Shown piece after piece: positions 7,420 through 48,326 of a stretch of DNA of 64,000 nt. Origin of the DNA: Phycisphaerae bacterium (GTDB lineage Bacteria; Planctomycetota; Phycisphaerae; UBA1845; UTPLA1). The notes beneath the pieces were generated by a model, which searched no databases, was not told the origin of the DNA, and saw only the letters and a list, made by a program, of their open reading frames with translations. Each line of letters starts with the position of its first letter. Position 1 is the stretch's first letter. A program made the translations under genes and the position numbers. The stretch spans positions 310,001-374,000 of the forward strand of contig JAHBXN010000002.1 of the NCBI GenBank assembly GCA_019636475.1, given 5' to 3'.

Positions 7420-8031
7420 TCACTTCGGATCGATCGGGTTCGGCAGCGGGATCGAATCGCTCGCACGCGTCGAACGCTTCACCAGCAGTGCGTTTGGCAG
7501 AAGGCCCCATGCCATCAACTCGCACTGCGTGAGGCTCTCCACGAATTCCGAAGTCACGACCTTCAGGCCGCAGTTAAATACCAATTGCTCTACTCGCCCG
7601 GCGATCACCCGCGCCGCAGGCGTATCAAGTTCATAATTTGAAGTCAGCAGTTGAACGATACGGGCTTTGTCCCATTGCTTCTGAGTCAGACCCACACCGC
7701 GCGGCCGGGCGTACGCGACTTTCACCCATCGACGCATCTTCTCGCGCAACTGATGGTGATGCCGAATCGCCATACCCGCGGCGCTGTAACCCGTCTGAAC
7801 CAGCACCAGCTCGACCAGCTCCGCCAGATGATCCGATGGCACCGCCGAATTCGGACGGCTCTTGCGGAGATAGGTCTGCACCGCCTCGGCGAGTCCACGC
7901 GACGTCGGGCTGTTTCGCTCGTGCGGCTCTCCGCTCGACACAAAACCGTTCCCGATGCTGCAGTTCAGTTTCGCCAGTACAAAATTCTCGATCGACCCAT
8001 CACGCTTCAACACGCTGATTTCGCCATCCAT
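7420..8031 (-). CDS. ATP-cone-like protein linked to nrdR
   Basis: A 203-residue protein whose start lies 9 bases after the nrdR stop, so the two are surely one operon. The N-terminal 100 residues read like a diverged ATP-cone: VLKRDGSIENFVLAKL corresponds to the lysine/Asp-Gly strand and the following helix, and later helices resemble the ILE-lve-vL pattern. A second segment from about residue 120 (WDKARIVQLLTSNYEL, then helices) repeats the helical part. ATP-cones bind ATP or dATP in NrdR and in ribonucleotide reductases. The protein has no zinc ribbon and no DNA-binding part. A role as nucleotide sensor or NrdR partner is inference from context. Confidence 0.75.
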   Translation of the reverse strand: MDGEISVLKRDGSIENFVLAKLNCSIGNGFVSSGEPHERNSPTSRGLAEAVQTYLRKSRPNSAVPSDHLAELVELVLVQTGYSAAGMAIRHHHQLREKMRRWVKVAYARPRGVGLTQKQWDKARIVQLLTSNYELDTPAARVIAGRVEQLVFNCGLKVVTSEFVESLTQCELMAWGLLPNALLVKRSTRASDSIPLPNPIDPK

Positions 8032-8040
8032 GGCATTCGC

Positions 8041-8541
8041 TCACTGTTCGTCCTGAAACAAGGACTGTTGGCCGGCTACGTCGCTTTCATCCTCGAGCAC
8101 CTCCTGTGCTTCCTGGATGAACTCGCCTACTTCCTGGAACTCATAATACAGACTTGCGAACCGAAGATAAGCGATCTTGTCCAATTTTCTTAGTCGCGAC
8201 GAGATCGCCTTGCCCAGGTACTCGCTTGGTACTTCGCGATCGAATTTTCGAAATACCTCCTCTTCTACGTCATCAACCAGCGTTTCGATCTGTTCGGCCT
8301 TCAGTGAGAGTTTCCAGCACGCCCTTGTTACGCTGCCGATCAGTTTTTCTCGTTCGTAAGGCTGCCGCGCGCCATCCTTTTTGACTACCAGCAGCTTGTT
8401 CGTCGTATCGATGCGCTCATACGTCGTGAAGCGACGGTGACAACCGAGACACTCACGCCGACGCCGAATCACCGCGCCGCCATCCGCAGCACGCGAATCA
8501 ATGACTTTGTCGTCCTGTTCTTTGCAATACGGACATCGCAT
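8041..8541 (-). CDS. nrdR: Transcriptional repressor NrdR
   Basis: A 166-residue regulator of ribonucleotide reductase genes. An N-terminal zinc ribbon (MRCPYCKEQDDKVIDSR, then RRRECLGCHRRFTTYER) binds DNA. An ATP-cone (LLVVKKDGARQPYEREKL through RFASLYYEF) senses ATP and dATP, and NrdR binds paired NrdR boxes in promoters. The C-terminus has an acidic tail of about 25 residues (VLEDESDVAGQQSLFQDEQ). The likely target in this window is nrdJ, which has two matching boxes at 47376-47422. It is the first gene of a two-gene operon with the ATP-cone-like gene. Confidence 0.95.
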   Translation of the reverse strand: MRCPYCKEQDDKVIDSRAADGGAVIRRRRECLGCHRRFTTYERIDTTNKLLVVKKDGARQPYEREKLIGSVTRACWKLSLKAEQIETLVDDVEEEVFRKFDREVPSEYLGKAISSRLRKLDKIAYLRFASLYYEFQEVGEFIQEAQEVLEDESDVAGQQSLFQDEQ

Positions 8542-8598
8542 TCCGACGCCACATCATGCGGGATCCATCGCTGAACCCCAATATGTTGTATAGGCTGG

Positions 8599-44373: not shown

Positions 44374-47106
44374 TTAACATTGGGCGTACCCGCATGCGTG
44401 ACACTTGGTGCATCCCTCTCCCATATCAAGGTCCCCGCCACACTCGGGGCATTTCAATCGATACGCCGAACGCGCCGCGAGCCGTGCCGGGGGGTCGAGC
44501 AGGCGGCTGACGCTCAGCGTGGTGTCCGTATCGGCATCGTCTTCGATATCCGAATAACCGTTGCCGTTGCCGCCCCTGTGAATATCGACCGGCGTCTTTT
44601 CAATCTCCGCGGGGTCAATCTCGCCCAGAAGCAGGGCACGCAGGCCGTGGCGTTCCTTCGCGCGGGTGAACCGCTTCAGTGCCTGGGCCAGACCGTCGCC
44701 GAGCGACATGATCTTCCCATCCCGTGTGGGAATCTGGAGGTGGGTTCCAATACCCGAAAGCTGCTTCACCACGTGGATCAGGCTGCCGCCGGCCCTCAAC
44801 CAGAGGCTGATCATCCGGCAAATGGCCTCCAGATCGCTGTTGGCGATGTCTCCGCCCTTGCCGAGCTGGGCAAACACTTCCAGTTCCCGCTCAGTCCGCG
44901 GATCGACCGTAATCTGGATGTGCATGTTGCCGAAGGGTGTCTGCTGGCGGACTCGAATCCCGCTGGTGATCGCCGGCAGTTCCTTCGGCTCGAGCGACGC
45001 GGGTTTCTTCACTTTCGTGATTCGTTCACCAAACAGGTTCGTTTCCGTCTCGATTCGCGGGCGGTCGTCTCGGGCATCCCGAGCGGCCGTTGAATCGACA
45101 TTCGTCGATGCAATCGGCGCGGCCTGGGCCGTCTTGCTCGTGCAGCACGCGCTGGGTGCGGCTGCGGCAGGGTCGGACTGTCCGGCGGACTTGTGCTTAT
45201 CCTCGGAGTTCGCGAGCGCCATCGGCTGGCTCGAACGACAGCCGTCGCGATAGACCGTGACACCCTTGCAGCGCAGTGCATAGGCATCGCGGTAGATCTT
45301 TTCGACGTCGTTCGAAGTCGCATCGTGAGCGAAGTTGATGGTTTTGCTGATCGAGGAATCGCAGTGCCGCTGAAACGCCGCCTGCATGCGGACGTGCCAC
45401 TCTGGTTGAATATCGTGAGCGCAAACGAACACGCGCTTCACGTCTTCGGGGATGCCGTCAATATGAGCGAGGGTGCCTTCCTTGGCAATCCGATCCATCA
45501 GACCCTCGCTGAAAAAGCCGCGCTCGCGCGCGACAATCTCAAATGTCTTGTTGATTTCAATCATCGGAGCCTTGCCTTCGTCCTGCCCTTTCAAAACGTT
45601 GCGGAAGAAGGCGAGGCTGAACATCGGCTCAATGCCGCCGCTGCAATCGGCGATGATGCTGATCGTGCCGGTCGGAGCAACGGTCGTCGAGCAACTGTTT
45701 CGCATCGGGCGATGGTACTTTGTATCCCAGTGGCTGTTGGCCCAGTTGGGAAAATTACCCCGCTCAATGGCGAGCTTTTCGGAGTAGTTGTGACTTTCGT
45801 CATTGACAAACTTCATCAGGCGTTCGCCCCACGCCACGCCCTCGTCTGAGTTGTATGCCACACCGAGTTTGTACAGCGCGTCGGCAAAACCCATGATGCC
45901 GAGGCCGATCTTGCGATTGGCCGTGCAGATGTCGTGAATCTGTTCCAGCGGGTAGTTGTTCGCATCGATGACGTTGTCCAGGAAGCGAATGCTCTCATGC
46001 ACCGTGTCACGAAGCGCTTCCCAGTCAATCTCCGCCGCCGGAGTACACTCGTTCTTCACGAACAAGCCAAGATTGATGCTGCCGAGATTGCACGCCTCGT
46101 ATGGCAGGAGCGGCTGCTCACCGCAGGGATTGGTCGCTTCGATGCGTCCGACATGGGGCGTCGGGTTGGACTCGTTGATCCGGTCGATGAAAACTACGCC
46201 CGGCTCGCCGGTCTGCCACGCATGTTTGACGATGATGTCCCAGAGGTCCTGCCTTGAATAGACCGGGGTTACGCCATCATAAGATTCCGCACGGATCAAA
46301 TCGCGTACACCATAGTCACGAATCACCACGTCACGGGGGATGTAGAATTCCTGGCCGTTGCGAGGGTTTCTCGTGAGGTGCGGACTGTTCGGGTCGCGGA
46401 GAAATGCCTCCATCCACTCGTCCGTTATCTTCACGGAGATGTTGTAATTCGTGAATTGGCTGAGGTCCTGTTTGGCGTGCAGGAATTTGAGAATATCAGG
46501 GTGATGAATGTACATCATGCCCATGTTCGCGCCGCGGCGAAACGCCCCCTGCTGAATGGCATTTGTCGCCTCGCTGAACGCCCGCCAGAAACTGATCGGT
46601 CCGCTCGTCGTCCCGCCGCTTGATTTGATGAAATCGCCCGTCGGCCGAAGCTGGTCAAACGCGAAGCCCGTGCCGCCGCCGGCCTTCTGAATCAGTGCCG
46701 TGTGCTTGATCGAATCGAAAATCCCGTCGATGGAATCCGGCACTGGAAGAACAAAGCACGCACTCAACATGCCCATGGACCGTCCGGCGTTCATCAACGT
46801 CGGACTGTTCGGCATGAACCTGCGCGAGGTCATCAGGCGCTGAAAGCGGGTCTTCCACTCGCTGCGACATGCCTGATTCGCGCCATACTTCGATTCCACG
46901 GCCGCCATCGTCTCCGCGACGCGTTCAAAAAGACTTTCCGGTCCTTCCGTGCAGGCGCCGGTTTCGTCTTTCTCCAGATAGCGCGCGCGCAGAACCCGAA
47001 CCGCGTTTTCCGTCAGGCCGGCGCATTCGCGTCCGCTCGCCCCGGCGACATCCGTGTCGCCCGCAACTCCTCGATCCGTCGAAATGGTCACCATCTTCGC
47101 CACCAT
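44374..47106 (-). CDS. nrdJ: Adenosylcobalamin-dependent (class II) ribonucleotide reductase
   Basis: A 910-residue enzyme that makes deoxyribonucleotides and needs coenzyme B12 rather than a diiron radical protein. Motifs are RRFMPNSPTLMNAG, ACFVLPVPDSIDGIF, AGGGTGFAFDQLRP, RRGANMGMM, and the catalytic NPCGEQPLLPYEACNLGSINL. The last part has the acidic/His-rich linker and the zinc-ribbon and redox end LKCPECGGDLD plus CHACGYAQC. The ATG at 47106 was used; an ATG four codons later is possible. Upstream lies a promoter with two NrdR-box-like sites (47370-47422), so it is the probable NrdR target. A terminator follows at 44178-44222. Confidence 0.95.
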   Translation of the reverse strand: MVAKMVTISTDRGVAGDTDVAGASGRECAGLTENAVRVLRARYLEKDETGACTEGPESLFERVAETMAAVESKYGANQACRSEWKTRFQRLMTSRRFMPNSPTLMNAGRSMGMLSACFVLPVPDSIDGIFDSIKHTALIQKAGGGTGFAFDQLRPTGDFIKSSGGTTSGPISFWRAFSEATNAIQQGAFRRGANMGMMYIHHPDILKFLHAKQDLSQFTNYNISVKITDEWMEAFLRDPNSPHLTRNPRNGQEFYIPRDVVIRDYGVRDLIRAESYDGVTPVYSRQDLWDIIVKHAWQTGEPGVVFIDRINESNPTPHVGRIEATNPCGEQPLLPYEACNLGSINLGLFVKNECTPAAEIDWEALRDTVHESIRFLDNVIDANNYPLEQIHDICTANRKIGLGIMGFADALYKLGVAYNSDEGVAWGERLMKFVNDESHNYSEKLAIERGNFPNWANSHWDTKYHRPMRNSCSTTVAPTGTISIIADCSGGIEPMFSLAFFRNVLKGQDEGKAPMIEINKTFEIVARERGFFSEGLMDRIAKEGTLAHIDGIPEDVKRVFVCAHDIQPEWHVRMQAAFQRHCDSSISKTINFAHDATSNDVEKIYRDAYALRCKGVTVYRDGCRSSQPMALANSEDKHKSAGQSDPAAAAPSACCTSKTAQAAPIASTNVDSTAARDARDDRPRIETETNLFGERITKVKKPASLEPKELPAITSGIRVRQQTPFGNMHIQITVDPRTERELEVFAQLGKGGDIANSDLEAICRMISLWLRAGGSLIHVVKQLSGIGTHLQIPTRDGKIMSLGDGLAQALKRFTRAKERHGLRALLLGEIDPAEIEKTPVDIHRGGNGNGYSDIEDDADTDTTLSVSRLLDPPARLAARSAYRLKCPECGGDLDMGEGCTKCHACGYAQC

Positions 47107-47369
47107 GATTAATCTTCAATCCGAAACCGCGCTGAAAAACCTTCAGGCAGCTCCTGAGCCAACAGTTATCACTGCCGCCCCGGCTTCGGTCGCCGAATCC
47201 GGGGAGCCACGGCATGCAGTTCGCTTCGTCCCACTCCATTGGACCCAGCAAAGTCGATGAGAAACCGAACGGATCGCCCCGACTTCGCCGGACTCAACCC
47301 ATTCCGAATCGGAAAGACGTCGGAAATTGTTTCGGTAACTCTTCGATGTGCCCTTGAGGGCAAATGGAA

Positions 47370-47398
47370 GGAATATCGCAATATGTTGTGGGTGTCAA
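47370..47398 (-). promoter_or_regulatory. nrdJ: nrdJ promoter
   Basis: On the minus strand TTGACA (47393-47398) is followed after 17 bases by TATTCC (47370-47375). Transcription would start near 47363, giving a leader of about 255 bases. The spacer is the first NrdR-box-like site, so binding would block the promoter. Confidence 0.7.
47376..47391. promoter_or_regulatory. nrdJ: NrdR-box-like site 1 (promoter spacer)
   Basis: The 16 bases match 12 of 16 positions of the NrdR box consensus acaCwAtATaTwGtgt as I remember it, including the central CAATAT and TTG. It lies exactly between the -35 and -10 boxes of the nrdJ promoter. Confidence 0.6.
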
Positions 47399-47406
47399 TC
47401 AAAACA

Positions 47407-47422
47407 TTACAAAATATAGTAG
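47407..47422. promoter_or_regulatory. nrdJ: NrdR-box-like site 2 (upstream of -35)
   Basis: About 11 of 16 positions match the consensus (CAAAATATAG core). Its centre is 31 bp from site 1, three helical turns, which is the spacing of paired NrdR boxes. The copy is weaker than site 1. Confidence 0.5.
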
Positions 47423-47603
47423 TTTGCTTAACACTCGAATTCCATGGAAGTTAGGCGCAGAATGGCATCAAATACACAAAAATGACGATCAAATAGCCAT
47501 CGCCCGGTCGCGGCGGGCGGCTTGGGGTATATACCCCAAGTCAAGGACCTATAAAGCGCGTCACCAGCCTGCCGGGGGGTGAAAACGGCGATTCGATTCA
47601 TCA

Positions 47604-48326
47604 ATGAGCACTGACCGCCAACATGCCGGATCGGCGGCACTACCACATCAGTGCCCTCTATGCGGCACCGATTCGGCGTCACGGGCGCAATCCCACGGAC
47701 GCGACTTTCACCACTGCCGTGAATGCGATCTGATCGCCGTCGCCGCCGAGCAACATCTGTCCGCCGGCGCGCAGCGTGAACGCTATGCCAATCATGAGAA
47801 TTCGCTGGCAAACGCCGGATATGTCCGCATGTTTGATGCGTTCGTCGAGCGGGTTCGTGAATACGCGCCGCCTCCCGCCAGAGCGATCGACATCGGCTGC
47901 GGGCCGCATCGGGTGCTGATCGAACTGATGCGACGCGCGGGTTATGACGCGGTCGGTTTCGATCCTGTCTACGGCATCGATGACACGATCGTTGCACCCT
48001 TCGATCTCATTGTTTCGACGGAGTCGTTCGAACATTTTTCACGACCGGGCGAGTCACTCACCTTCCTCCTCGGACTTCTGAATGAGGGCGGCGTACTCGC
48101 CGTGATGACGCGACTGCACCCGGGATTCGACGGGATCAGTGACTGGTGGTACGCGCGCGACCCGACGCACGTGTCGTTCTACTCGGCGGCCACCATGCGA
48201 TGGATCGCCAAGCGGCACGGCCTCGAGCTCCTGGCTTGCGACGGCGTACAGATCACGGTGATGCGGAAATTCCGCGGGCACGCCGGCGATGATTCTCCAT
48301 CAACCCAGCACGTCGGCCAACTGTGA
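47604..48326 (+). CDS. Class I methyltransferase with N-terminal zinc finger
   Basis: A 240-residue protein. The first 45 residues carry CPLCG and CRECD cysteine pairs, a zinc-ribbon as in methyltransferases of PF08421-like groups. The methyltransferase core starts RAIDIGCGPHRVLIELM (motif I), with GFDPVYG, DLIVSTESFEHF and GGVLAVMTR. The domain order resembles methyltransferases of sugar or methionine-derived pathways; the substrate is unknown. The 3' end overlaps the ugd 3' end by 27 bases tail to tail. Confidence 0.75.
   Translation: MSTDRQHAGSAALPHQCPLCGTDSASRAQSHGRDFHHCRECDLIAVAAEQHLSAGAQRERYANHENSLANAGYVRMFDAFVERVREYAPPPARAIDIGCGPHRVLIELMRRAGYDAVGFDPVYGIDDTIVAPFDLIVSTESFEHFSRPGESLTFLLGLLNEGGVLAVMTRLHPGFDGISDWWYARDPTHVSFYSAATMRWIAKRHGLELLACDGVQITVMRKFRGHAGDDSPSTQHVGQL

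Follow-up and report, generated by a model that had tools for sequence, protein, structure and literature searches.

Genes and promoter elements at the nrdJ and nrdR loci

The window, a 64-kb stretch of DNA, comes from a Phycisphaerae bacterium (the target) whose nearest named relatives are Planctomycetota/Phycisphaerae metagenome-assembled genomes. It carries nrdJ, coding for a class II ribonucleotide reductase, and nrdR, coding for NrdR, a bacterial repressor sensing nucleotide levels. Both identities had been proposed in a first-pass annotation and were confirmed by profile matches (TIGR02504 and NF006417 for nrdJ, TIGR00244 for nrdR). The nrdR product exceeded the cut-offs of PF22811, PF03477 and TIGR00244, and its Zn-ribbon aligned ungapped to a solved NrdR. 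In the target genome (4.4 Mb, estimated 95% complete), NrdJ was the sole PF02867 protein, and the sole large reductase subunit, detected.

The nrdJ promoter was read directly from the sequence. On the minus strand, 5' to 3', it consists of CTACTATATTTTGTAA, 8 bp, TTGACA, CCCACAACATATTGCGA and TATTCC. The features of the two loci are listed below; ranks refer to the relatives-only matrix described in the next section.

8041..8541, minus strand: nrdR, coding for a transcriptional repressor that has a Zn-ribbon and an ATP-cone (TIGR00244, 164.4 bits, cut-off 124.65; matches to NrdR entries of the PDB)
8576..8591, minus strand: NrdR box ATACAACATATTGGGG before nrdR (rank 1 in 64 kb; conserved at the equivalent position in 12 other family members)
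44374..47106, minus strand: nrdJ, adenosylcobalamin-dependent (class II) ribonucleotide reductase, 910 aa (TIGR02504, 678.8 bits; NF006417, 975 bits)
47344..47359, minus strand: decayed downstream NrdR box, of which only the conserved half CCTCAAG persists; it lies 32 bp beyond the spacer box
47370..47375, minus strand: -10 hexamer TATTCC, weak (TA invariant in the family crown)
47376..47391, minus strand: proximal NrdR box CCACAACATATTGCGA (rank 3 in 64 kb; kept in the whole family)
47392-47376, minus strand: 17-bp spacer CCCACAACATATTGCGA, 16 of its 17 bases being the proximal box
47393..47398, minus strand: -35 hexamer TTGACA (TTGAC invariant in the family alignment)
47407..47422, minus strand: distal NrdR box CTACTATATTTTGTAA, core CTATATTTTG (rank 2 in 64 kb; kept in the family crown)

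This reading bore out the TTGACA-N17-TATTCC promoter proposed upstream of nrdJ (47398-47393 and 47375-47370), together with the placing of one 16-bp box in its spacer (47376-47391) and of a second 31 bp away, upstream of the -35 hexamer (47407-47422). One NrdR box sits within the -35/-10 spacer of the reductase promoter. The two boxes are 31 bp apart from start to start, with a gap of 15 bp, and each fits the core at 8/8 positions, including the conserved C4 and G13. The -10 hexamer agrees with the consensus at 3/6 positions only, and was absent from the list of a sigma-70 scan; several relatives have TATTAA or TATTTA as their -10. Transcription is predicted to start at about 47363, which, with the ATG at 47106, gives a leader of about 257 nt.

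The leader was also assayed for RNA elements. An Rfam scan of the 64-kb window at gathering scores gave no match to a cobalamin or other riboswitch, and relaxed scores over 47100-47610 yielded one weak, meaningless match, so that a leader riboswitch was discarded. The 'nrdJ RNA' motif of the literature was set aside as well: a search for that term gave Streptomyces papers only, and no Rfam match was obtained here.

Directly downstream of nrdR lies a gene for a 203-aa protein with an N-terminal ATP-cone (PF03477, 26.7 bits; 7420-8031, minus strand), which is kept at this place in 19 of 29 loci, the target's own included. The nrdJ product gave no ATP-cone match; therefore, this small protein could be a second nucleotide sensor.

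Detection and conservation of the paired boxes

From related nrdJ and nrdR promoters, excluding the target, 32 boxes were combined into a matrix that was then symmetrised. Its three best sites in the 64-kb window were 8576-8591 (18.7 bits), 47407-47422 (15.7) and 47376-47391 (15.5), the fourth scoring 10.4. A motif from relatives had been named in the first-pass annotation as a test of the site, and both nrdJ boxes match it, at ranks 2 and 3.

The boxes could be chance palindromes of an AT-rich intergenic stretch, in a genome where matches to the box pattern with 3 mismatches are frequent. However, the nrdJ pair scored 31.2 against a maximum of 23.4 among 3000 Markov-shuffled intergenic regions, none of which reached it, and a second box of such quality is expected at the six allowed offsets with P = 1.5e-4. 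Across the 4.4-Mb genome, only two sites differ from the textbook box by 1 mismatch, the proximal box being one of them. The exact paired core CWANATNTWG-N21-CWANATNTWG, a pattern worded after the sites were seen and for which the target-excluded matrix is the fairer test, occurred a single time in the 4.4 Mb, at the nrdJ promoter; its reversed control pattern had 0 matches in 150 genomes. Moreover, both boxes and spacing are kept in orthologous promoters. Conservation in relatives refutes a chance origin, to which we leave a negligible likelihood.

Alignment of 14 nrdJ promoters from the same family revealed an invariant TTGAC with the proximal box next to it in all 14. The distal box lies at 31-32 bp in most of them; L066 and L067 lack it, and that of L005 is poor. 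Column by column, conservation in the family crown falls on the two boxes and the two hexamers, the first two bases of the -10 (TA) being invariant. The same TTGAC-box-TAT layout was also found in nrdJ promoters outside the target family.

This pattern also bears on the divergent methyltransferase gene (PF13489; 47604-48326, plus strand), which has its intergenic region in common with nrdJ. The boxes might control this gene instead of or besides nrdJ: among the 7 family loci whose flanks are long enough, 6 have it in divergent orientation, and the NrdR boxes are overlapped by a promoter-like site on the plus strand. However, the conserved -35 and -10 face nrdJ, not the methyltransferase, and their layout is common to nrdJ promoters outside the family. 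We regard control of the methyltransferase as improbable and retain nrdJ as the regulated gene.

Two further conserved elements were noticed in the target family. TAA and TTA, about 20 bp apart (47428-47465), lie upstream of the distal box and possibly belong to another regulator or to the divergent promoter. CCGAA (47331-47335) lies downstream of CCTCAAG at a constant distance, and its conservation is confined to the family.

The nrdR promoter, whose own box was missing from the first-pass annotation as was the family's decayed downstream half box, showed a related organisation. In 12 family relatives besides the target, TTGACA is followed by a weak box-like spacer and, 31-32 bp further, by a strong box (consensus about ATACAANATGTTGGGG) overlying the predicted nrdR start. 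In the target, the strong box ATACAACATATTGGGG is intact and the spacer box is poor. This sequence arrangement indicates that nrdR is probably autoregulated through the box at 8576-8591.

Searching the 150 related genomes for the paired core at 31 or 32 bp gave 30 sites. Of these, 14 belong to nrdJ, nrdR or another class II reductase gene, and dCTP deaminase genes account for 4 more. The latter 4 come from four more distant genomes of the class (L123, L141, L142 and L143), where an exact paired core lies just upstream of the dCTP deaminase gene, around position 1501; this suggests that NrdR may also control dCTP deaminase there. As a second NrdR target in the target genome it was rejected, no PF22769 gene being detected. 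In G001 (L151:1501-1542), a 32-bp paired core was observed downstream of nrdJ, 26 bp before a Bro-N-domain gene.

Position of the partner box across the order

The spacer box does not have the same partner throughout the order. Among 51 non-redundant nrdJ promoters, partner cores numbered 12 at -31, 26 at +31 and 12 at +32, whereas the other offsets averaged 0.63 and reached at most 8 (at +17). As the spacer box and TTGAC served as anchors of this test, its independent evidence lies in the partner positions only. Outside the target family, most families of the order pair the spacer box with one 31-32 bp downstream (32 of 39 non-redundant promoters). Related families have a full second box at the position homologous to the decayed downstream box of the target. 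In the crown of the target family, the partner lies 31-32 bp upstream, and only the CCTCAAG half remains downstream, still conserved 31-33 bp from the spacer box. An RNA hairpin around CCTCAAG was considered and rejected, the alignment (n = 7, one sequence poorly aligned) giving no consensus structure; the inverted repeats nearby are better explained as remnants of the palindromic box.

The working site of the target could alternatively be formed by the spacer box and the downstream box (47344-47359), with the upstream box merely helping. Such is the arrangement in most other families, and the persistence of CCTCAAG in the target family favours it. Precedent exists in E. coli nrdAB, where the first-predicted pair is bound 40-50 times weaker than the sites of other operons and the real site is the next pair downstream (PMC12176259); hence, a predicted pair of NrdR boxes can be the wrong one. 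Like the target promoter, nrdAB has three box-like positions in one phase (boxes 0, 1 and 2), and three-box NrdR promoters are already known (PMC12051234, PMC12176259). However, the downstream site of the target retains 3/8 core positions and has lost the conserved G, whereas the upstream site has 8/8 and is kept in the family crown. While the downstream pair is the real one in E. coli, the comparative evidence here favours the upstream pair, and we consider a working downstream pair unlikely, if slightly less so than control of the methyltransferase.

A quick NrdJ tree placed L066 and L067, both still of the downstream form, as sister to the crown. The upstream form was also found in a separate second group (L032, L044 and L081), and L005, within the crown, leans towards the downstream form. 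A tentative interpretation, which we hold as possible rather than probable, is that the NrdR site slid by one box on at least two occasions in the order: the spacer box would have stayed fixed, and its partner, once 31 bp downstream, would have come to lie 31 bp upstream. The target family would then represent an intermediate stage with three positions in phase, where the half box may still serve NrdR in tuning repression or in selecting one of two tetramer positions.

Proposed control of nrdJ by NrdR

The analysis shows the sites with their spacing and conservation, as well as the gene of the repressor. We conclude with high confidence that the sequence forms an NrdR operator-promoter of nrdJ, with the distal and proximal boxes as the pair. 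The usual gap between NrdR boxes is 15-16 bp, about three helical turns (PMC12051234). Paired boxes had been put forward as a hallmark of NrdR control, and the 31-bp pair indeed has the geometry of the NrdR-DNA complex solved for Streptomyces coelicolor, in which one tetramer occupies two boxes about three helical turns apart and the bent DNA hinders RNA polymerase (PMC9110341). That complex requires dATP and ATP, and the conserved C and G of the box, both kept in the target, are important for binding (PMC9110341). The S. coelicolor protein contacts DNA through D15, R17 and arginines 12, 26-29 and 37 (PMC9110341). The target NrdR carries D15, R17, R26-R29 (RRRR motif) and R37 likewise, but differs by a lysine at 12. 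The proposed link from nrdR to nrdJ is therefore supported by the target-excluded motif, by conservation and by the NrdR contact residues.

Binding, repression and nucleotide response would follow those of characterised NrdR proteins. At high dATP, NrdR would carry both dATP and ATP and form tetramers. A single tetramer would grip both boxes, three helical turns apart on the same DNA face, and bend the DNA. With one box placed between the -35 and -10 hexamers, RNA polymerase would be shut out and nrdJ repressed. When dATP falls, ATP-loaded NrdR would form larger assemblies unable to bind, and nrdJ would be transcribed. Through the box at 8576-8591, NrdR would probably limit its own synthesis.

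Known systems offer close parallels. In S. coelicolor, NrdR binds nrdRJ, also a class II reductase target, with two palindromic boxes at a distance of 31 bp, GC pairs conserved at 9/18 and 40/49, and a similar association with the RNA polymerase site (PMC9110341). There, nrdR and nrdJ form one operon, whereas in the target about 38 kb separate the two genes, and each has a box-bearing promoter of its own. In Pseudomonas aeruginosa, NrdR represses nrdJ, as established in vivo in that species, from a stand-alone promoter with two NrdR boxes like that of the target (PMC4409342). NrdR also controls class I and III reductases in P. aeruginosa, whereas nrdJ encodes the only large subunit found in the target.

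Altogether, NrdR control of nrdJ is already known, and the target promoter is a further, ordinary example. The modest addition is comparative: pairing is upstream in the target family and downstream in most related nrdJ promoters. This provides a series in which the two sites of a repressor have to keep a distance of three helical turns, whereas the pair shifts as a unit along the promoter. For an uncultured Planctomycetota lineage, it also gives a well-supported regulatory link to the sole ribonucleotide reductase detected; therefore, control of DNA precursor supply in this lineage would run through NrdR.
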